This document shows positions 2,995 through 29,833 of a DNA stretch of 33,184 nucleotides, one piece after another. The translations under genes were made by a program, and so were the position numbers. Position 1 is the stretch's first letter. Each line of letters opens with the position of its first letter. Under the pieces are notes generated by a model. The model saw only the letters and a list, made by a program, of their open reading frames with translations, did not search any database and was not told where the DNA came from. Source of the DNA: a virus; IMG/VR virus record IMGVR_UViG_3300036770_007567, positions 1 through 33,184 of that record; one strand, 5' to 3'.

Positions 2995-4378
2995 TGTACA
3001 GAAACTGTTCTTGGAAATGATGCTGCAGGACGCACAGAGCTATGTGCGTGTGCAAAACATCTACAATCCAGAAAACTTTGATCGTAGCCTGCGTTCGGCT
3101 GCCAAGTTCATCAAGGAACACTGTGACAAGCACAAGACCATGCCGGACCGTGCGCAGATCACCGCGGCCACGGCAGTGCGATTGGATACCATACCCGAGC
3201 TCAATGATGGCCACTTTGATTGGTTCATGGAAGAGTTTGAGTGCTTTACCAAGCGCCAGGAACTGGAGCGGGCCATACTCAAGGCCGCGGATCTCTTGGA
3301 AAAGGGCGAGTTTGATCCCGTGGAAAAGCTCATCAAGGATGCTGTGCAGATCAGTCTCACCAAGGACATGGGCACTGACTACTTTGCTGATCCACGTGCG
3401 CGGTTATTGGCCCTGAAAAACAACAACGGACAGAACAGCACCGGATGGCCGGCCCTGGACAAACTGCTGTATGGCGGATTCAATCGCGGCGAGCTGCAGA
3501 TCTTTGCCGGCGGGTCGGGGTCGGGCAAGAGTTTGTTCATGCAGAACTTGGCCGTGAATTGGGTGGAAGCCGGGCTCAACGGTGTGTACATCACGCTGGA
3601 ACTGAGTGAAGGACTGTGTTCCATGCGCATCGATGGCATGCTGACCAACACAGCGCAGAAAGAAATCTTCCGGGACCTTGACACCGTGGAGATGAAGATC
3701 AAGATGATGGGCAAAAAAGCCGGCAAGATGCGCATCAAGTACATGCCGGCCCAGAGCACTGTAAACGATATCCGCGCCTATCTCAAGGAACTGCAGATCC
3801 AGACAGGTCTCAAGGCAGATTTTTTGTGTGTGGACTACCTGGACTTGCTGATGCCCGTGAGCGCCAAGGTATCGCCCAATGACTTGTTCGTCAAGGACAA
3901 GTACGTCAGTGAAGAGCTGCGTAACCTGGCCAAAGAACTCAACATCTTGTTTGTCACAGCATCGCAGTTGAACCGCAGCGCCGTGGAAGAGATCGAGTTT
4001 GACCACAGCCACATCTCGGGTGGTATCTCCAAGATCAACACAGCAGACAATGTGTTTGGTATCTTTACATCGCGCGCCATGCGCGAACGTGGGCGTTATC
4101 AGCTACAGCTCATGAAAACACGTTCAAGTTCGGGTGTGGGGCAAAAGGTAGAACTGGAGTTTGACATCGAGAGCCTGCGCATACGTGATCTCGCACAGGA
4201 TGAAGGCTATCAGGAATTCAAGAAACGTGCGCCCAGCATCTACGAAAGCATCAAGACCACCAGCCGCATCGCGGAAGGCGAAGCCAACGCCACTGTGGCC
4301 GATCAGCCTGGCAAGATCACTGCGGAAGTGCAGAGCGCCAAGCTCAAGCAACTGTTGGGACAGATCAAGCAGGGCTGA
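2972..4378 (+). CDS. 41: Replicative DNA helicase, T4 gp41/DnaB type, 468 aa
   Basis: This is a hexameric 5'-3' helicase of the replisome that pairs with the gp61-type primase. The RecA-like motor has Walker A at residues about 180-187 (GGSGSGKS, Lys186), a Walker-B-like LCVDYLDLL, and a DnaB-type segment around SQLNRSAVE followed by the arginine-bearing MKTRSS. The N-terminal 160 residues are helical, as in gp41 and DnaB. I place the start at TTG 2972: AGGAAG at 2959-2964 is seven bases upstream, and the resulting MLKDYGVDVQK matches the N-terminus I expect for gp41 homologues. An in-frame TTG at 2951 has no such site. The 3' end overlaps the reverse-strand polymerase gene by 14 bases. Confidence 0.93.
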   Translation: MLKDYGVDVQKLFLEMMLQDAQSYVRVQNIYNPENFDRSLRSAAKFIKEHCDKHKTMPDRAQITAATAVRLDTIPELNDGHFDWFMEEFECFTKRQELERAILKAADLLEKGEFDPVEKLIKDAVQISLTKDMGTDYFADPRARLLALKNNNGQNSTGWPALDKLLYGGFNRGELQIFAGGSGSGKSLFMQNLAVNWVEAGLNGVYITLELSEGLCSMRIDGMLTNTAQKEIFRDLDTVEMKIKMMGKKAGKMRIKYMPAQSTVNDIRAYLKELQIQTGLKADFLCVDYLDLLMPVSAKVSPNDLFVKDKYVSEELRNLAKELNILFVTASQLNRSAVEEIEFDHSHISGGISKINTADNVFGIFTSRAMRERGRYQLQLMKTRSSSGVGQKVELEFDIESLRIRDLAQDEGYQEFKKRAPSIYESIKTTSRIAEGEANATVADQPGKITAEVQSAKLKQLLGQIKQG

Positions 4379-6068
4379 GATATTGGTGTATGGGCAGGGC
4401 CTTGACGTTGGCCCTGTGGCATTGCAGGAACTGGCTACCATCGCGACTGCGCATCTCCCCGTTGCCCACGATCACTGAACCAGCACCATACTTGATGGGC
4501 CGATCCACGATGAGATCCACGTATTCACCTTCGCCCACGCCCAGTGTGATGAAATGTATGTACTGCTTCTTGTCGCGACGGAACACGCGGCTGTTGGCCA
4601 CGATGCCGGCAAACTCATAGTGATCTAGATATAGACCGCGCACACCCATGTTGGGCAAGAAGCCCGGCGAGTTCCATGCACCGTGCTCCAGGAAGCTCTC
4701 CACGGGATCCTCGGTGATCCAGTTGTCAAAGCCCAGGTCACGTAGGTCCCAGCCTGCTCGTTTGGCTTCGTTGCGATAGACCCAACGGGCGTAACTGCCT
4801 TGGCAGTGCAGCAGCGCAGCGCGCCAGAACTCGCGTGGATTGTGTGCCTTGTGATAGGCCAGGGCCCAGATCAATCGACCCAGGTTCACGGCATGCGCAC
4901 GGCAGAGTCCAAATCCTGACAGGCTCTGCATCTCCTGGCGGATCTGTTCACGCCGTGGATGGTCGCCCAGGCGCGCCATGAACTCCATGACCTTTTCTTC
5001 GTTGCGCTTGGCAAACGCACGACGATACATGTCGGCCTCATAGGCGTTGACAGAGATCAGCCGCATGATCTTTTCTATGGCATCGTCTTCGCACACTATG
5101 GCCGAGTCCTGCACGGTCTTCTGTGTCCAGTCATGGAAGAACGATGCCTTTTTGCGTCCTTCCACGGCCACGGGCCGCACCAGGGCCGTGGCAAACACAC
5201 AGTCATGCACCGACGTGGGCTGTATGGCCCGGAACAGTCGCCGCATGGCAGGAGATTCGCCCTGCGTCACACCCAAGACGTCTCCGCGAGCCAAGAGATC
5301 CGCTGTGGCTTCATCAGTGTGCGGATATTCGTGTACACCGCGCGTGGCATCAATCTCCATGAGCTGGCTGAGTCCACGGTTGGCCAGGATGTCCACCTTG
5401 AGATGTTCAAGATCCTCTACTTCGTTTTTGTCCAAGAGTATGAGGTTGTCGTCGCGGAACAGGCTCTGGGGCAGCTTGCGATCAAACACGATAACACCAC
5501 CACAGTGCTTGCTGAGGCAGCGTTTCTTACCAATGAGCTTGCGCTCAATGCGCTGCGCTTCCTCCACGTCCACGCCCAGTTTGTGATAGTCAATTTCCTT
5601 GGGCAAACGACCGCGCACACCCAGGCGCTTGACTGCTTCGCGGCGGGCGCTTTTCTCTTTGTACATCACGTAGTTGCTGATGCGTGCTGTGCGGCCGGGC
5701 CATGCGTCAAATATGCGCTGCATGGCCAGTTCCTGCTGATGATGTGGCACGTCAATGTCCACGTCAGGCAAGTCATCTCGAAAAGGATTTAGGAATCGCG
5801 CCAGGGGTATGTTCCACTCCATGGGATCCACGTCGGTGATGCCCATGAGATAACACACCAAGCTGGAGCCTGCGCTGCCGCGCGTCATGTGTGGTATGTC
5901 GGCGTTGAGATCCAAGACCTGGCGTATCTTTAGGAAGTAATCCGTGAAACGCTGGTTTATGATGATGCCAAATTCTTCCACCAGCCGTTGCTGGTAGCGC
6001 TCGTCTGCAGGACAAGGCCTGCGGAATTGGGCCATGAGACTTTCGATCTGTTCTAGTTCAGTTGCCAT
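4365..6068 (-). CDS. DnaE-like (bacterial Pol III alpha family, C-family) DNA polymerase lacking PHP domain, 567 aa
   Basis: The protein aligns by motif with the polymerase core of bacterial DNA polymerase III alpha. RGSAGSSLVCY at residues 63-73 matches the phosphate-binding palm segment. PDVDIDV (101-107) supplies two catalytic Asp (D104, D106; E. coli D401/D403), and D226 in LKVDILANRG fits the third (E. coli D555). KHCGG at 187-191 and a helix-hairpin-helix-like SGFGLCRAHA are also present, and the C-terminal 100 residues look like the OB fold. The N-terminal PHP domain (about 270 residues) is absent and the start is at the palm, so length is about half of normal. The start ATG at 6068 has AAGG six bases upstream on its strand. 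It is encoded opposite to primase and helicase. It may be a specialised or repair polymerase; whether a T4-type gp43 also exists is outside this window. Confidence 0.85.
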   Translation of the reverse strand: MATELEQIESLMAQFRRPCPADERYQQRLVEEFGIIINQRFTDYFLKIRQVLDLNADIPHMTRGSAGSSLVCYLMGITDVDPMEWNIPLARFLNPFRDDLPDVDIDVPHHQQELAMQRIFDAWPGRTARISNYVMYKEKSARREAVKRLGVRGRLPKEIDYHKLGVDVEEAQRIERKLIGKKRCLSKHCGGVIVFDRKLPQSLFRDDNLILLDKNEVEDLEHLKVDILANRGLSQLMEIDATRGVHEYPHTDEATADLLARGDVLGVTQGESPAMRRLFRAIQPTSVHDCVFATALVRPVAVEGRKKASFFHDWTQKTVQDSAIVCEDDAIEKIMRLISVNAYEADMYRRAFAKRNEEKVMEFMARLGDHPRREQIRQEMQSLSGFGLCRAHAVNLGRLIWALAYHKAHNPREFWRAALLHCQGSYARWVYRNEAKRAGWDLRDLGFDNWITEDPVESFLEHGAWNSPGFLPNMGVRGLYLDHYEFAGIVANSRVFRRDKKQYIHFITLGVGEGEYVDLIVDRPIKYGAGSVIVGNGEMRSRDGSQFLQCHRANVKALPIHQYLSPA

Positions 6069-6533: not shown

Positions 6534-7601
6534 TCACAGTCCCAACACCGCGGCCAACTCAGGCAGGCTCTGCCGCCAGTTGGTTTTCTTGACATAGTCC
6601 TGGGCCTCTAACCGGGCAGCGAACTTTTCCGCGGTGAGTTCCTGCCCGGTGATTTCTACCATGGGTCCAAAAAATTCATGATCGGCCAAGGCCTGTTTCA
6701 GCGCCACTGGAGCAGAAGCAAATCCAGCCCACTGCGGATAATAAACTAGATTGTGATTGTGTCGCAGACCTTGGCTGGCAAACCATCGCAGCGTGTCGTC
6801 ATAATAAAGAGCATTCAGGGCACTGATGGTGTAGCTCACTGACAACAGCGGAGTGGCCTGTCGATATTGCTCCAAATTTTTCAGCATCACATCCCAAGAC
6901 AGTGGCCAACGCAGATATTCAAACACCGACTCCAAGCCATCTATGCTGATGCAGATGTTGAGATCCTGGAATTCCTGCATCATGGCCAGTAGGGATGGAC
7001 TCAGCGTCATGCTGCCGTTGGTGACAAAACTGATGGAGCAGTCGGTGTTGCCGTAGTCCAACAGCCGCGACAGTGCCTGTTCTGTGCTGGGATCGATCAA
7101 AGGCTCGCCACCCTGTAACGTCAATCTTCGAGCCGTGGCCCAGTCGATGCCCAGCTGGTCTAGATCTGCTTGATAGGGGCGATGACGATTGATGTGCATG
7201 CGCTTTTCCATAGCGATCCATTTGGTGCTATAGGCGCCGTTGCAGGTCACGCAGGCGAGGTTGCACAGATTACTGGTCATGATTTGATACACCAGTGTTT
7301 TGTTGCGTCCTTGTTCTACATCCTGCTCGATCAGCTCAATGTCGCGATTCAGCTTGTAATCTAGAAATTCGTTTTCTTGCTGTCGCCGGCTGCGTATGCC
7401 TTGCGATTCCAAGGTCCAGCACTTTTCGCATTCGGGTGGCTTCTTGCCCTCTCGCATGGCCTGTTCAAATGCTTGTTTGTTGTACCTTTCTGGCAGCAAA
7501 CAGCAAGGTGTGGAATGTCCACGGTGACGGCCCATGCCCGGTGACAGCACTTCATGGCTGTACCAAGGCATCACGCAGAAATTGGGATTTTTAAGAGCCA
7601 T
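6534..7601 (-). CDS. Radical SAM enzyme with twitch-type auxiliary cluster region, 355 aa
   Basis: C113-x3-C117-x2-C120 (SNLCNLACVTC) is the canonical motif that binds the 4Fe-4S cluster used to split S-adenosylmethionine. LQGGEPL provides the GGE motif for SAM. Extra cysteines before the core (C9 in FCVMPW, C33/C34, and C58-x2-C61 in ECEKCW) fit an N-terminal auxiliary-cluster region as in twitch/SPASM relatives found in T4-like phages. The substrate is unknown; peptide, sugar or nucleotide modification are all possible. The gene is monocistronic on the reverse strand with its own late promoter at 7614-7621, so it acts late, which hints at modification of a virion or surface component. Its cluster need makes it a candidate client of the phage IscU/IscA pair. 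Confidence 0.88.
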   Translation of the reverse strand: MALKNPNFCVMPWYSHEVLSPGMGRHRGHSTPCCLLPERYNKQAFEQAMREGKKPPECEKCWTLESQGIRSRRQQENEFLDYKLNRDIELIEQDVEQGRNKTLVYQIMTSNLCNLACVTCNGAYSTKWIAMEKRMHINRHRPYQADLDQLGIDWATARRLTLQGGEPLIDPSTEQALSRLLDYGNTDCSISFVTNGSMTLSPSLLAMMQEFQDLNICISIDGLESVFEYLRWPLSWDVMLKNLEQYRQATPLLSVSYTISALNALYYDDTLRWFASQGLRHNHNLVYYPQWAGFASAPVALKQALADHEFFGPMVEITGQELTAEKFAARLEAQDYVKKTNWRQSLPELAAVLGL

Positions 7602-13033: not shown

Positions 13034-13057
13034 ACTACGTGATTGAAAGGAGACGGC

Positions 13058-13447
13058 ATGGCTTATAGCCAGCAGGTCATCGACCATTACGAGAACCCAC
13101 GCAACGTGGGATCATTTGACAAACACGACATTGACGTAGGCACTGGGATGGTAGGCGCCCCGGCCTGCGGTGATGTGATGAAACTGCAAATCAAGGTGGA
13201 CAACCATGGCGTCATCACTGATGCGAAATTCAAAACCTACGGCTGTGGCTCAGCGATTGCTTCGTCAAGCCTTGTCACAGAGTGGGTCAAGGGTAAAACA
13301 CTGGATCAGGCAGCAACAATCCGCAACACCGATATCGCAGAAGAGTTGGCCTTGCCCCCGGTAAAGATACATTGTTCGATACTCGCGGAAGACGCTATCC
13401 GAGCAGCCATAGAGGATTATCGTAAGAAGCATGATAACGCTGACTGA
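13058..13447 (+). CDS. iscU: Iron-sulphur cluster scaffold protein IscU, 129 aa
   Basis: IscU is the scaffold on which 2Fe-2S and 4Fe-4S clusters are built from sulphur given by the cysteine desulphurase IscS. The sequence is close to the proteobacterial protein along its whole length and same size. It keeps the three ligands C37 (GAPACGDV), C63 (TYGCGS) and C106 (VKIHCS), the D39 that allows cluster release, and the LPPVK motif (99-103) that binds the HscA chaperone. It should therefore work with the host IscS/HscA/HscB machinery. ATG 13058 has AAAGGAG with good spacing. It overlaps iscA by 17 bases. Wording such as KGKTLDQA and [10 protein letters not shown] seems closest to betaproteobacterial IscU, an inference about origin. 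Confidence 0.95.
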
Positions 13448-13757
13448 AAATGCTGCTGACAAAGTGCGTCAACAGTTGGCCCGCCGAGGTCAAGGTCTGG
13501 GCATACGTGTGGGAGTCAAGACCACGGGCTGCTCGGGACTGGCCTATGTGCTGGAGTTCGTGGACGCGGCTCCGGCGACACAGGATCAATTTGTGTACGA
13601 GCAACATGGAGTCCGTATCTGGGTGGATGGCAGCAGCCTGCCCTATGTCAACGGACTGACCATGGACTGGCAGCGCCAAGGCCTCAACGAAGGTTTTGAA
13701 TTTATCAACCCCAATGAACGCGACCGCTGCGGTTGCGGAGAGAGTTTCCGAGTCTAA
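13431..13757 (+). CDS. iscA: Iron-sulphur cluster carrier IscA (A-type), 108 aa
   Basis: A-type carriers take iron or clusters from the scaffold to target enzymes. The three conserved cysteines are present: C34 in [13 protein letters not shown], and C100 and C102 in the C-terminal CGCGESF. Length is normal (E. coli IscA has 107 residues). The start ATG 13431 lies inside the end of iscU and the stop TAA overlaps the next start (TAATG at 13755-13759), so iscU, iscA and the nuclease are translated as a chain. ErpA or SufA could be argued, but the [12 protein letters not shown] region and pairing with IscU favour IscA. Confidence 0.92.
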
Positions 13758-25525: not shown

Positions 25526-25778
25526 CAAGGTCTGGATCAGGATCACAAATACCCGCCAATGGTACAGCGTCATGGCGGAGTGCCGCCGCTTGTACGGACA
25601 AGCATGGTCTTGCCAACCTCGATTCCGACGAAAGTTGGAAAGGATGATGTACCTAGGGCAGTATCCTCAGGGATTATATACGTGGTTTAGGGTTCCAGAC
25701 CACCGCTTTGCGGTGTGGATAGCCACGAAGTTGGGGGTTGAAGCGGTACAAAAAGATCGCCCACCATCCAATAAATAA
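25512..25778 (+). CDS. Small basic hypothetical protein, 88 aa
   Basis: The protein starts MKNYDKVWIRITNTRQWYSV and is rich in Arg, Trp and Tyr (ECRRLYGQAW, RFRRKLERMMYLGQ, WFRVPDHRFAVWI). The basic, aromatic make-up suggests nucleic-acid or protein binding, with no named family. ATG 25512 overlaps the last 14 bases of the ligase gene. A late-type motif lies in its last codons at 25770. Confidence 0.66.
   Translation: MKNYDKVWIRITNTRQWYSVMAECRRLYGQAWSCQPRFRRKLERMMYLGQYPQGLYTWFRVPDHRFAVWIATKLGVEAVQKDRPPSNK
25770..25777 (+). promoter_or_regulatory. T4-type late promoter (AATAAATA), possibly leaderless
   Basis: AATAAATA ends 9 bases before ATG 25787, predicting a start of transcription near 25783 and a 4-base leader. 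No ribosome binding site is present. Confidence 0.5.
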
Positions 25779-25786
25779 ATCTTACT

Positions 25787-27259
25787 ATGATCCTGACCTA
25801 CATTATGTTTGTAGTGGCGCTGAGTCTCAGCGCAGTGGCCGCATATTATTCCATTGTGGGTCTCGCCGCGATCTTTTCCGCCGCCACTATACCCATCATC
25901 ATCATGGGCAGCATGTTGGAAGCGGCCAAGCTCAGCACCACGCTGTGGCTGCATGAATACTGGAGCCGATGCCGCTGGATAATGAAACTGTATCTGGTGC
26001 CGGCAGTGATCGCCTTGATGTTCCTGACCAGCATGGGCATCTTTGGTTTCCTCAGCAAAGCGCACCTGGACCAGGCCGTGCCCACGGGTGACGTGGCTGC
26101 CCAGGTGTCATTGATAGATGAAAAAATCCGTATCCAGCGCGAGTACATCCAGACCGAACGTGACAATATCACCGCAGCCCGCAACACCCTTTCACAGTTG
26201 GACGCGCAAGTCAACGAACGCTTGAGCCGAGGCACCACCGAAAGCAGCGCAGAACGCTCGGTGCAGATCCGGGCTCAGCAGCGCACCGAACGGCGTGCTG
26301 TGCAACGCGACATCGATGAATCACAGAAGCGAATCGAGGCCATCAACGCCGAGATAGCCCGGCTCAACGAGCAGCGAGCACCCATCGCAGCCGATCTACG
26401 CAAGGTCGAGGCCGAGGTTGGTCCCATCAAATACATAGCGGCCTTGATCTATGGCGACAACCCCGACAGCAACCTCTTGGAGCGAGCTGTGCGTTGGGTC
26501 ACGATCCTGCTGGTGGCCGTGTTTGATCCCTTGGCCATCATGATGCTGCTGGCCGCCACAGAAAGCCTAAAATGGCACCGTGAGTCCAAGACCGCAGCCG
26601 TGACGCCAGTGCCTGACGCGCCGGCAGAGCCGCCCCAGCCCGAGACACCGCCCGCAGAACCAGATCTCCCAAATGTGCCCGCGGTATTGTATATCAATGA
26701 TGATCTCATCAAACCTTTGGCAGAACCACCTCCGGATCCAACACCCGAGCCCGAGCTGCCTAGCCAAGCTGACAAGCCTGCCGTGGTGGTAGCGGTACCC
26801 ACCGACACCACGCGCGACATGGAAGATGATGAGGATGCCATGGGTACCCATCCCGTGATCAAGCAAGTCAAGGCTCTTTGGAAGGCCGACCATCCCAAAG
26901 CCACATTGAAAGAACAACGTAGATTGGTGGAAGAAGGCAAGATAGCCGGCCTGCCATGGATGGACTATCTTGATGATCCTCGCATCCGGCGGGACGTGAC
27001 ATTTGGAAACTACTTCCCAACACAGGCCCTCAAAGGCGACATGTTCCTGGCCACCAATGGCATGCCCACACAGTTGTTCAAGTTCAACGGCGATAGATGG
27101 ATACAGGTTGACAAAGAGCAAACTGACAGTTATACTTACAATCCTGCTTATATAGATTTCTTGATAGACCGATTGAGCTCGGGCCAGTACGACGCTGATC
27201 TACTGACCGAAAGTGAGAAATCCAAGATTGAAGCCAAACTACGTCCGGAGGGCAAGTGA
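25787..27259 (+). CDS. Membrane protein with long coiled coil, 490 aa
   Basis: Two or three membrane spans lie in residues 1-90 (ILTYIMFVVALSLSAVAAYY, then LYLVPAVIALMFLTSMGIFGF). A long charged coiled coil follows (about 105-215: IDEKIRIQREYIQTERDNI onward), then another span near 235-260 (VTILLVAVFDPLAIMMLL). A Pro/Glu-rich linker (about 275-340) joins a C-terminal soluble domain. The shape recalls DUF4407-type proteins, and cyanophage homologues have been called virion proteins. It may sit in the host membrane, perhaps in DNA entry or exclusion of other phages; this is inference. ATG 25787 has no ribosome binding site. The clpX promoter lies inside its 3' end and its stop overlaps the clpX start. 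Confidence 0.72.
   Translation: MILTYIMFVVALSLSAVAAYYSIVGLAAIFSAATIPIIIMGSMLEAAKLSTTLWLHEYWSRCRWIMKLYLVPAVIALMFLTSMGIFGFLSKAHLDQAVPTGDVAAQVSLIDEKIRIQREYIQTERDNITAARNTLSQLDAQVNERLSRGTTESSAERSVQIRAQQRTERRAVQRDIDESQKRIEAINAEIARLNEQRAPIAADLRKVEAEVGPIKYIAALIYGDNPDSNLLERAVRWVTILLVAVFDPLAIMMLLAATESLKWHRESKTAAVTPVPDAPAEPPQPETPPAEPDLPNVPAVLYINDDLIKPLAEPPPDPTPEPELPSQADKPAVVVAVPTDTTRDMEDDEDAMGTHPVIKQVKALWKADHPKATLKEQRRLVEEGKIAGLPWMDYLDDPRIRRDVTFGNYFPTQALKGDMFLATNGMPTQLFKFNGDRWIQVDKEQTDSYTYNPAYIDFLIDRLSSGQYDADLLTESEKSKIEAKLRPEGK
27108..27136 (+). promoter_or_regulatory. Sigma70 promoter for clpX (TTGACA-17-TATACT)
   Basis: A perfect -35 TTGACA (27108-27113) and TATACT (27131-27136) are exactly 17 bases apart, inside the 3' end of gene 25787-27259 and about 115 bases before clpX. 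It would allow clpX and S21 to be expressed early, apart from the late gene upstream. Confidence 0.68.
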
Positions 27260-28455
27260 GCGAAGCCAAGGCCAAGACATACGAAAACACATGTAGTTTT
27301 TGCGGCAAGCACAAGGACATTGTTTCCAAACTCATAGTAGGTGACGGAGTCGCAATATGTAATGAATGCGTGACCCTCTGCACCGACCTTCTTACCAATC
27401 CTGAGGATGTCGAACAACCAACTAGCATCGACAATCTAGATCCACGCAGCCTCAAGGCCTTCCTGGATCAGTTCATCATAGGTCAAGATGCTGCCAAGGT
27501 GGTTCTGTCGGTGGCGGTGGTCAACCATTACAAGAGACTAAACCGGCCCAAGTCGGCACCGGAACTGGAAAAAAGCAACATCTTGATGCTGGGACCAACT
27601 GGGTCGGGCAAGACCCTGCTGGCGCGTACCATAGCACGTTTCTTGGATGTTCCGTTTGTGATCGCGGATGCCACCAGCCTCACCGAGGCCGGTTATGTGG
27701 GCGATGACGTGGAAAGCCTGATCAGCAGACTGTACGCTGCTTCAGGTTATGACATCAAACGCGCAGAACGTGGCATCGTGTTTGTGGATGAGATTGACAA
27801 GATATCGCGCAAGAGCGAAAGCACCAGCATCACTCGCGATGTCAGTGGTGAAGGTGTGCAGCAAGCTCTGCTGAAGTTGGTGGAAGGCACAGTATGCCGT
27901 ATACCAGGGCAAGGCGGTCGCAAGCATCCCGGCGGTGACATGCTGGAGATCGATACCAGCAACATCCTGTTCATAGCGGGCGGCGCTTTCGTGGGGCTGG
28001 ATGGTGTCATACAGCGACGGTTGCATGGTAGCAGCATAGGATTCACCAATCCTGTCAAGACGCAAAACGATGTGCACCTAGATCAAGTGTCACCAGATGA
28101 CTTGGTAAGGTTTGGTCTGATCCCGGAGTTTGTGGGACGTTTTCCCACCACTGTGGCGCTGAGACACTTGACCGAGGATGACATGGTACGCATCCTCACC
28201 GAGGTCAAGAACAACTACATCCAACAATATCAGTGGTTGTTTGCCCAAGATGGCATCACGTTGGAAGTGGCACCTGATGCCATCTCGGCTGTGGTGCAAC
28301 GGGCCATAAAGACTGGCACCGGGGCCAGGGCATTGCACAGCGAACTGGAAAAGGTGCTGATGCCACACATGTACGAACTTTGCTCGTATCGCGAGCGAGA
28401 CTTGAAACAGCTTAACATCGACGCTGATCAAGTAAATAATCCCACAACAGTATAA
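27256..28455 (+). CDS. clpX: ClpX, AAA+ unfoldase of the ClpXP protease, 399 aa
   Basis: ClpX unfolds tagged proteins and feeds them to ClpP. The four zinc ligands C13, C16, C35 and C38 form the substrate/adaptor domain. The motor has Walker A GPTGSGKT (113-120), pore loop GYVGD (146-150), Walker B VFVDEID (175-181), RKH pore loop (222-224) and sensor-2 region GTGARAL. The IGF tripeptide (261-263) that docks ClpX onto ClpP is kept, so it should couple to host ClpP; no clpP is in this window. It is about 25 residues shorter than E. coli ClpX, mainly at the ends. The start is GTG 27256, overlapping the upstream stop. S21 follows after 10 bases. Confidence 0.97.
28431..28438 (+). promoter_or_regulatory. 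Possible late promoter before S21 (AGTAAATA)
   Basis: AGTAAATA lies in the last codons of clpX, 27 bases before ATG 28466. It could give late expression of S21 in addition to read-through from the clpX promoter. A chance match within coding sequence is possible. Confidence 0.4.
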
Positions 28456-28465
28456 CGAGGAGACT

Positions 28466-28687
28466 ATGGCACTTTACGGACGTTCAGTTTTGGTCACAGA
28501 TGGCAACGTAGAAAAGGCTCTGCGCAAGCTCAAGAAAAAAGTACAGGCTTCGGGTGTGCTGCTGGATCTGCGCGAGCGCGAACAATATATCAAACCCACC
28601 ACACGGCGCAAAACAGCTCGCGCCCTGGCCAAGAAACGCTGGGAACGCTACGTCAAGAGTCAGCAGTTACCGCCCAAGAGCTGGTAA
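28466..28687 (+). CDS. rpsU: Ribosomal protein bS21 (phage-encoded), 73 aa
   Basis: bS21 sits on the small ribosomal subunit near the anti-Shine-Dalgarno region and helps in starting translation. The sequence keeps the family pattern: VEKALRKLKKKVQASGVL, then LREREQYIKPTTRRK, and a basic helix ending AKKRWERYVKSQQLPPKSW. The C-terminal SQQLPPKSW resembles the SQxLPKKL ending of betaproteobacterial S21, suggesting host origin. A phage copy could replace host S21 and favour phage messages. GAGGAG precedes ATG 28466. It is coupled to the next gene (TAATG). Confidence 0.93.
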   Translation: MALYGRSVLVTDGNVEKALRKLKKKVQASGVLLDLREREQYIKPTTRRKTARALAKKRWERYVKSQQLPPKSW

Positions 28688-28941
28688 TGTATCTTGAATT
28701 CCGCCTTCCCACTGGGGCTGGTGGACAGGCGGCTGCGCACGCCAACTATCTGCTGTGTGAAAAATTAGTACGCTGGAGCGAGCGACATGGTGTGCCCATG
28801 CGGCGCAAAACCATCAAATACACCCTGCGTGTGACATTCGACGACGAACGTTTCTACAGTTTCTTTGCCACTACCTGGCAAGCCAGCAATGACTGGCAGC
28901 GATTCCGTGTTATATCTGACCTAAACAATAGACAGGACTGA
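28687..28941 (+). CDS. Small basic hypothetical protein, 84 aa
   Basis: This protein starts MYLEFRLPTGAGGQAAAHANYL, has a basic centre (RHGVPMRRKTIKYTLRVTF) and an aromatic end (FYSFFATTWQASNDW). No family is recognised. Its start overlaps the S21 stop, so the two are made in step; a role near the ribosome is conceivable but unsupported beyond position. It ends just before the hsp20 promoter. Confidence 0.66.
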   Translation: MYLEFRLPTGAGGQAAAHANYLLCEKLVRWSERHGVPMRRKTIKYTLRVTFDDERFYSFFATTWQASNDWQRFRVISDLNNRQD

Positions 28942-28951
28942 CGATTTCCTG

Positions 28952-28959
28952 TATAAATA
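28952..28959 (+). promoter_or_regulatory. T4-type late promoter for hsp20, exact TATAAATA
   Basis: This exact consensus shares the 14-base context TCCTGTATAAATAT with 7638-7651. T4 geometry predicts transcription from 28965, the first base of a hairpin in the hsp20 leader. Confidence 0.75.
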
Positions 28960-28964
28960 TGTTT

Positions 28965-29023
28965 GTAGTGCCGATGGTCGGGCTACATCTAAGTCATTCT
29001 TGCTTAACAAAGGAGAATCTACA
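28965..29023 (+). promoter_or_regulatory. ROSE-like RNA thermometer in the hsp20 leader
   Basis: The second hairpin pairs ATTCTTGCTT (28996-29005) with AAGGAGAAT (29010-29018) around the loop AACA. All nine pairs form, with one bulged G at 29001+1 in the UUGCU segment facing the ribosome binding site. A bulged-G U(U/C)GCU opposite AGGA is the hallmark of ROSE elements that control small heat-shock genes. A first hairpin (GTAG..CCGA with TCGG..CTAC, 28965-28986) starts at the predicted +1. Two hairpins, the last hiding the Shine-Dalgarno, is the minimal ROSE layout. Folding was done by eye. Confidence 0.68.
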
Positions 29024-29464
29024 ATGACTCGTATCACATCTTTTGATCTCACCCCCTTCTACCGCAATTCAGTTGGTATCGATCGCTTGTTCGATCGCAT
29101 CGTGACACAGATCGATGCTGCTGCTGCCGCGGGCAACTATCCTCCCTACGATATCGTTCGTACCAGCGAGGACAAGTACGAAATCCGCATCGCTGCCGCT
29201 GGTTTCCGCCAGGGCGAAATCGATGTTGAATTCCATGAAGGCAAGCTCACCGTGCGCGGCGAACGTCAGGAAGAAGTTCGCCCCGAAGTTGAGTATCTGC
29301 ATCACGGCATCAGCAATCGTTCGTGGGTGCGTACTTTCCCCTTGGCTGACTATGTGGAAGTCAAAAACGCCACTATGAACGAGGGCATCCTGACTGTAGA
29401 GCTGGAGCGCATCCTGCCCGAAAGCCAGAAGCCCAAGAAGATTGAGATCGCTTACCAGAAGTAA
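29024..29464 (+). CDS. Small heat-shock protein Hsp20 (IbpA-like), 146 aa
   Basis: Hsp20 proteins hold unfolded proteins without ATP. The alpha-crystallin domain spans about residues 40-130: YPPYDIVRTSEDKYEIRIAAAGF opens it, followed by KLTVRGER, the strand RTFPLADYVEV, and NATMNEGILTVELER near its end. The C-terminal KKIEI is the IxI-type tail that fits neighbouring subunits. Such genes are common in T4-like cyanophages, where they may help capsid assembly. ATG 29024 has AAAGGAGA seven bases upstream; a start at 29000 would fall in the leader hairpin. Confidence 0.94.
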   Translation: MTRITSFDLTPFYRNSVGIDRLFDRIVTQIDAAAAAGNYPPYDIVRTSEDKYEIRIAAAGFRQGEIDVEFHEGKLTVRGERQEEVRPEVEYLHHGISNRSWVRTFPLADYVEVKNATMNEGILTVELERILPESQKPKKIEIAYQK

Positions 29465-29518: not shown

Positions 29519-29833
29519 ATGTCACAGACTGAAACAACCACCAAGACACGTGTGACCCCTGGACTGGCCCTGCAGGAGCCGCCCATGTTCAAGGTCATAT
29601 ACATCAATGACAACACAACCAGCATGGAGTTTGTGGTTGGGAGCCTTGTGGAACATTTTGACTATACCCCTTTGACCGCAGAACGAATCACCATTGACAT
29701 CCACGAAGCAGGATCAGCGGTGGTGGCAGTGCTGCCTTATGAGATAGCCGAACAAAAGGGCATAGATGTCACAGTTGCAGCCCGGCACGAAGGTTATCCC
29801 CTGCAGATCAAACTGGAACCTGAAAGCAATTAA
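29519..29833 (+). CDS. clpS: ClpS-like N-end-rule protease adaptor, 104 aa
   Basis: ClpS hands proteins with N-terminal Leu, Phe, Trp or Tyr to ClpAP. The core keeps the family signature: FKVIYINDN followed by TSMEFV, with N30 and D31 and M36 at positions that bind the N-terminal residue, and H62 (DIHEAGSAVV) as the third contact; the C-terminal YPLQIKLEPE matches YPLxxxLE. One conserved Asp is Asn32. The 20-residue N-terminal arm (TKTRVTPGLALQEPP) is what normally enters ClpA. No clpA lies here, so host ClpA or the phage ClpX would be the partner. GAGG at 29508-29511 precedes ATG 29519. Confidence 0.9.
   Translation: MSQTETTTKTRVTPGLALQEPPMFKVIYINDNTTSMEFVVGSLVEHFDYTPLTAERITIDIHEAGSAVVAVLPYEIAEQKGIDVTVAARHEGYPLQIKLEPESN

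Follow-up and report, generated by a model that had tools for sequence, protein, structure and literature searches.

The closest described systems to the locus treated here, a run of genes from clpX to clpS in a 33,184-nt viral DNA fragment (IMG/VR record IMGVR_UViG_3300036770_007567, positions 1-33,184; hereafter the window), are cultured giant phages that carry Clp genes, phages that encode the ribosomal protein bS21 (S21, gene rpsU), and the thermometer leader RNAs of bacterial small heat-shock genes. Each of the 11 records of the Wroclawvirus phages (PA5oct, MIJ3, Callisto, Paride) has clpX overlapped at its end by rpsU, and the Pseudomonas phage Callisto shows the order clpX, S21, two genes (one PTPS-like), ibpB/hsp20 and clpS, its S21 being a 68-aa 'hypothetical' protein (Pfam 1.1e-15). 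Callisto also encodes ClpP and carries a leader before hsp20 that resembles the one in the window. Wroclawvirus nonetheless forms a separate phage group, in which rpsU is annotated in some records only and two other genes take the place of orf84. The giant rhizobial phages Atu_ph07 and Phosso likewise encode ClpX, ClpP, ClpS and Hsp20, but have the gene for translation initiation factor IF-3 instead of rpsU directly after clpX, and hold hsp20, a thymidine kinase gene and clpS as a run of their own, distant from clpX. A Clp set that includes ClpA was reported for Atu_ph07 in 2018 (PMC6102473), a precedent for such a phage-borne set, and a review has proposed that phage ClpS delivers substrates to the ClpAP of the host (PMC7824862).

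Phage bS21 with Hsp20 and Clp genes nearby has been described by Chen et al. 2022, who found Hsp20 (127) and two Clp families (50 and 47) within ten genes of bS21 across 900 phages; their own phages, unlike the window, have Bacteroidetes hosts and carry bS21 beside structural genes with late expression, and the accessible passages of that paper mention neither a ClpX-S21-Hsp20-ClpS unit nor an RNA element (PMC9723584). Among bacterial leaders, the short ROSE-like thermometers examined in Pseudomonas comprise two hairpins in about 60 nt, pair U(U/C)GCU against the Shine-Dalgarno (SD) sequence, and respond to heat by melting of the second hairpin (PMC3669281).

Set beside these systems, the locus of the window combines clpX, rpsU, orf84, hsp20 and clpS with a putative host-type promoter before clpX and with a putative T4-type late promoter and a ROSE-like leader before hsp20. 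It is probably, though by no great degree, a proteostasis operon of the phage with two phases of expression, early for ClpX and S21 and late for Hsp20 and ClpS. What had appeared to be a two-gene curiosity is thereby a conserved and widespread proteostasis module, testable in cultured Pseudomonas jumbo phages.

Gene order and proteins of the locus

Scans of IMG/VR with the ClpX, S21 and ClpS of the window yielded about 240 loci on contigs of up to 364 kb, among which, once near-duplicates were removed, 99 non-redundant loci have clpX together with hsp20. The conserved unit is clpX-[rpsU]-[orf84]-hsp20-clpS, and the genes present keep the same order and orientation in 99/99 loci. Occupancy differs between members: clpS is found in 96 loci, S21 in 83, orf84 in 30, and the gene upstream of clpX in 96. 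The constant core of the locus is thus clpX-hsp20-clpS (96-99 of 99), with S21 as an optional member. The sequence-only reading from which this work started had joined ClpX and S21 into a two-gene unit, and although the adjacency of clpX and rpsU that it proposed to look for does recur in related phages (83/99 loci, and the cultured Wroclawvirus besides), the unit itself does not hold, since S21 comes and goes while clpX, hsp20 and clpS stay. The stretch it considered, to position 28941, includes orf84, but orf84, hsp20 and clpS are absent from its description. All genes of the unit belong to kinds already known, and the ordered unit is already visible in deposited Wroclawvirus records; the searchable literature, outside which most subscription journals lie, gave no account of a clpX-rpsU-hsp20-clpS unit as such.

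ClpX is intact, as had been proposed, with its zinc domain, ATPase motifs and IGF loop. It matches Pfam zf-C4_ClpX (2.3e-14) and AAA_2 (1.6e-30) and aligns end to end with ClpX of E. coli and P. aeruginosa, bearing the zinc cysteines C13/C16/C35/C38, Walker A GPTGSGKT, pore loop GYVG, Walker B FVDEID, the RKH loop, the IGF loop at residues 261-263, the arginine finger R295 and the sensor-2 motif GAR. An alignment of 21 diverse relatives keeps all functional motifs, and with them the GF of the IGF loop, by which ClpX docks on ClpP. The best structure matches of the monomer model are ClpX chains from ClpXP complexes; its mean predicted local distance difference test (pLDDT) score is 75 and the IGF loop is poorly defined in it. 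These motifs predict docking on ClpP and unfolding of substrates. When 99 ClpX proteins from phages and 40 from bacteria are placed in one tree, a branch with full support separates the phage proteins from the rest, so that this ClpX belongs to an old phage lineage and is no recently acquired host gene. An attempt to infer the host from ClpX similarity was dropped, the phage clade standing on a long branch apart from every bacterial ClpX.

The S21 of the window, likewise intact as claimed and at the claimed distance from clpX, is a basic helical protein that scores 57.8 bits against a Pfam cut-off of 27 and is supported by an alignment of relatives (A4) and by matches to bS21 chains in the PDB. 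Homology suggests that it would join 30S subunits. S21 occurs in 31/38 loci fetched by ClpX alone, changes its presence on the ClpX tree at least 9 times, and is absent from the whole contig in 5 of 20 large contigs despite the presence of the locus; these 20 form the set of large relatives in which S21, ClpP, ClpA and leader copies were counted. Because S21 directly follows clpX wherever it is present, its position never varying, repeated loss is its likely history. A tblastn search of cultured phages with the S21 of the window gave no match, although S21 exists in the PA5oct group; since short divergent proteins escape tblastn, such absence is weak evidence. In orf84 the AlphaFold model has a ferredoxin-like fold, and comparison with the PDB gave no significant match (best E 0.097).

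The last gene of the unit encodes a ClpS that aligns to solved PDB ClpS structures and shows both their fold and the N-degron pocket. Residues N30, D31, T34, H62 and E20-P21 are invariant across 22 aligned sequences, and the EPP junction, i.e. Pro-Pro, is kept. The rest of the protease appears in the large relatives. ClpP is encoded in 19/20 of them, where its translated sequences contain the catalytic motifs, as well as in the cultured phages Callisto, Phosso and Atu_ph07, and a Clp N domain protein, mostly ClpA-sized and counted as ClpA, is found in 18/20, with an IGF motif in both ClpA sequences that were read. Judged by these predicted proteins, most large relatives bring ClpX, ClpA, ClpP and ClpS together. 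A second, divergent ClpP-like protein occurs in 14 of the 19 ClpP-bearing large relatives (e.g. contig G007, 96939-97475). It often lies no more than about 4 kb from the first and is a candidate head protease or ClpP partner.

Features of the clpX-clpS locus, with positions in the window
Feature	Position	Strand	Basis and remarks
Upstream gene, 490 aa	25787..27259	+	Pfam DUF4407 1.6e-5, below cut-off; N-terminal membrane segments by eye; stop overlaps GTG start of clpX
Putative sigma70-type promoter, TTGACA-17-TATACT	27108..27136	+	11/12 match; inside upstream gene
clpX, 399 aa	27256..28455	+	Pfam and alignment; functional motifs all intact
rpsU (bS21), 73 aa	28466..28687	+	Pfam PF01165 8.6e-16; 10-nt gap after clpX
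orf84, conserved alpha/beta protein	28687..28941	+	27-sequence alignment; AlphaFold pLDDT 92; start overlaps rpsU stop
Putative T4-type late promoter, TATAAATA	28952..28959	+	Octamer match; ATAAATA core kept in relatives
ROSE-like 5' leader RNA of hsp20	28957..29035	+	Model R1, covariation, fold
hsp20, 146 aa, IbpA-like by eye	29024..29464	+	Pfam HSP20 2.2e-17; phrog_432 1.4e-38
clpS, 104 aa, N-degron adaptor	29519..29833	+	Pfam ClpS 2.6e-22, 78.8 bits

The ROSE-like leader RNA

The stretch from the late promoter to the start of hsp20 is a conserved leader that would fold into two hairpins (I, 28964-28987; II, 28993-29028). The stem letters of hairpin I, one instance of which is TGTAG-T-G-CC-GATGGTC-GGG-CTACA, vary freely while their pairing is kept. 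In hairpin II an anti-SD CUUGCUU (28999-29005) opposes the SD AAAGGAG (29009-29015), CUU-G-CUU pairing with the AAG-GAG of the ribosome binding site around a bulged G, and in hsp20 GUCAU also pairs with AUGAC of the start region. On 113 matches of R1, a model built from phage hsp20 leaders, pairing holds in 94.8% of cells (97.4% in hairpin I and 97.6% in helix 3). Two-sided changes number 358 cells, where shuffling gives 118 and sliding of the partner no more than 75; the corresponding figures on an unfitted alignment are 223, 74 and no more than 71. Among the hsp20 leaders, 94/101 carry U(U/C)GC(U/C) with the SD after it, a combination seen in 0/313 leaders of neighbouring genes from the same loci. 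R1 finds the leader of the window with 68.9 bits (E 9.8e-15), the window sequence being itself part of the model, and in each of the whole genomes of Callisto, Phosso and Atu_ph07 it matches best at the leader of hsp20.

The link to bacterial thermometers comes from both directions. Rfam ROSE_3 matches the phage element in 4/7 loci tested (E 0.001-0.024) and the hsp20 leader of Atu_ph07 (E 0.029), and R1 run over 12 bacterial genomes has a single match (E 0.029), the leader of hsp20 in Shewanella fodinae, which shares with the phage element the geometry of its folded hairpin I. An R1 run over 119 genomes from the order of Shewanella gave one match with E<0.01, a false positive inside a coding sequence, under stricter filters that lose the Shewanella hsp20 match too; the bacterial support therefore consists of the one match and the Rfam results. 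The phage leader shares with the Pseudomonas ibpA ROSE element (Rfam ROSE_3, RF02523) its length of about 60 nt, two hairpins, the U(U/C)GCU-SD pairing in the second of these and a position before a small heat-shock gene. It differs in being phage-borne, in standing behind a T4-type late promoter, in the bulged G of hairpin I, in scoring below the Rfam cut-off and in occurring before dnaK and groES as well. By sequence and pairing, the hsp20 leader is thus built like ROSE, a likeness that stops short of formal membership in the Rfam family, and a response to temperature is predicted for it.

Further copies of the leader stand before other chaperone genes, each large contig holding one to three R1 matches (20 contigs). 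In 23 fetched loci a dnaK gene (~626 aa) with a ROSE-like leader of its own is inserted between rpsU and hsp20, and in two contigs groES is preceded by TATAAATA and the same leader (G001, 120772-120848; G002, 306028-306104). One of the leader copies before dnaK lies at 225109-225184 of contig G011, and a late promoter is seen before dnaK in most loci checked. A weaker copy precedes the gene for a 91-residue protein, phasin-like by eye, which lies roughly 2 kb upstream of the second, divergent ClpP. The hsp20 of the dnaK loci retains its leader, mostly without the late motif, which argues that the leader acts in the translation of hsp20 itself.

Searches of the same literature for ROSE-like leaders in phages found none, and the combination of phage, RNA thermometer and Hsp20 gave only an unrelated item; phage ROSE-like chaperone leaders, the most novel part of the locus, are apparently undescribed. 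If they are thermometers, phages would control their own chaperones by temperature through an RNA switch of bacterial type, and it would become possible to test directly where the bS21 and Clp functions of phages come from and when they act.

Promoters and expression of the locus

The near-perfect sigma70 promoter proposed at 27108 stands up to comparison with the relatives. In 17/92 non-redundant loci an 11/12 site stands no more than 200 nt from clpX, compared with a single one in 119,600 nt of neighbouring sequence, an enrichment at this position of about 100-fold. As the site lies inside the upstream gene, the silent positions of its -35 and -10 hexamers were compared across 23 distinct relatives that share the peptide. 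They are held at GAC in 23/23 (usage 0.44), ACT in 18/23 (0.26) and GTT in 12/17 (0.25), the kinship of these relatives making binomial values loose; control codons of the same kind beside the hexamers, on the same tree, are conserved in only 13/22 and 15/22. An origin of the site as a coding accident is rejected on this difference between the silent hexamer positions and the adjacent control codons. A conserved promoter of host type, as predicted from these patterns, thus precedes clpX in a subset of relatives.

A different signal marks the downstream half. The late-promoter octamer TATAAATA is found 3 times in the window against 0.18 expected, and an ATAAATA core (mostly TATAAATA or AATAAATA) lies 66-75 nt upstream of the hsp20 start in 79/101 loci, as opposed to 3/97 before clpX and to 4% of random windows. 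A homologue of the gp55-type late sigma factor is encoded in 13/15 large relatives, the window being a fragment. On this evidence the ATAAATA signal before hsp20 is assigned as a T4-type late promoter. No claim is made for a late promoter before rpsU, where an ATAAATA at the clpX end of some subclades is encoded by a conserved Ile-Asn stretch. Further (N)ATAAATA sites in the window lie at 25770, 14469, 472 and 7643, the first three of them possible late promoters just upstream of the long open reading frames (ORFs) at 25787, 14499 and 483.

Under the two-phase reading, host polymerase would transcribe clpX and the S21 gene early in those subclades that have the sigma70 promoter. ClpX would use its IGF loop to dock on the ClpP of the phage, of the host or of both, and would unfold selected substrates, and S21 would enter 30S subunits and keep or bias initiation toward phage mRNAs. 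Late in infection the gp55 homologue, as phage late sigma factor, would drive production of Hsp20 and ClpS, the former holding unfolded virion proteins and the latter delivering N-degron substrates to phage or host ClpAP, and the leader hairpin would throttle translation of Hsp20 and open with heat, like that of bacterial ibpA. In a wider form, with about even chances of being right, jumbo phages would run a heat-shock regulon of their own, in which ROSE-like thermometers were captured with a proteobacterial hsp20/ibpA, copied before dnaK and groES, combined with late promoters and brought into one locus with the Clp system and a ribosomal protein, tuning folding, N-degron proteolysis and initiation together.

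Several observations weigh against this reading. The fractions of loci given above come from relatives picked by their likeness to window proteins and are not phage survey frequencies, the sigma70 site is limited to some subclades, and clpP and clpA are absent from this 33-kb fragment. The ROSE_3 scores, at 28-36 bits, are all under the gathering cut-off of 43, and an Rfam search of the window itself returned no ROSE match. Energy folding of 97 leaders shows little response to heat and does not set the hsp20 SD apart from the rpsU SD as more hidden or more heat-sensitive, so that the case for a thermometer comes from homology and covariation. Finally, bS21 appears late in the one published expression study, which concerns other phages with Bacteroidetes hosts (PMC9723584).

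The late timing of bS21 bears on two alternatives, and the readings are not mutually exclusive, so that the confidence placed in each need not sum to one. The sequence-only reading had proposed an early takeover, in which ClpX and S21 jointly redirect host ClpP and the initiation of translation, Hsp20 and ClpS being incidental. The early-type promoter before clpX fits it, as do the adjacency of clpX and rpsU in two phage groups and the gene for IF-3, another initiation protein, after clpX in Atu_ph07 and Phosso; an initiation-protein gene after clpX in at least two arrangements speaks for a link between ClpX and initiation, without proving it. S21 is repeatedly lost, however, down to the large contigs without any S21, while Hsp20 and ClpS stay, phage ClpP and ClpA remove the need to capture the host protease, and the published bS21 expression is late (PMC9723584), and the takeover is improbable. 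What survives of an early unit is the conserved host-type promoter before clpX in a subset, the downstream half having a late promoter instead; redirection of the host protease keeps the conserved GF of the IGF loop in its favour, but with the relatives' own ClpP and ClpA it is neither the only nor the simplest reading. The same late bS21 of other phages (PMC9723584) would suit a role of all the proteins, S21 included, in the production and folding of virion proteins, with the sigma70 site of minor importance. The late promoter within the operon and the closeness of chaperones, dnaK standing between rpsU and hsp20 in 23 loci, agree with this; yet the late motif before clpX is near chance (3/97) and the sigma70 hexamers are under selection, so that late assembly support for the whole locus is unlikely.

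The leader, too, may be something other than a thermometer. Hairpin I could stabilise the 5' end or bind a protein on late transcripts, and the CUUGCUU-SD pairing could set a fixed low rate of translation. A late start would put hairpin I close to the mRNA 5' end, the energy folding changes little with temperature, and hairpin I of the Pseudomonas ROSE element is itself not heat-responsive (PMC3669281). A pure 5' end role misfits the dnaK-inserted loci, however, which keep the hsp20 leader as that of a second gene, mostly without a late promoter, and the same element stands before dnaK and groES, which are heat-shock genes. Its two-hairpin plan and U(U/C)GCU are moreover those of the tested short ROSE thermometers, and a leader without thermometer function is considered somewhat unlikely. 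The two-phase operon with a ROSE-like leader before its late half is accordingly the reading adopted here.

Paride and other genes of the window

The Wroclawvirus phage Paride is reported to replicate on dormant P. aeruginosa, and the text of the paper describing it does not mention Clp or S21 (PMC10761892). In its record (OR805295, 42244-42393) clpX and rpsU overlap, and clpS is also present. A contribution of Clp proteins or S21 to its infecting such dormant cells is no more than a guess.

Elsewhere in the window, a NifU/IscU-like Fe-S scaffold protein (13043-13447; phrog_8429, 2.8e-41) is followed by a protein that is IscA/HesB-like by eye (13431-13757). The minus strand carries a DNA polymerase III alpha-like piece of 567 aa (4365-6068; phrog_405, 5.4e-61) and a radical SAM protein (6534-7601; phrog_1802, 7.3e-14).

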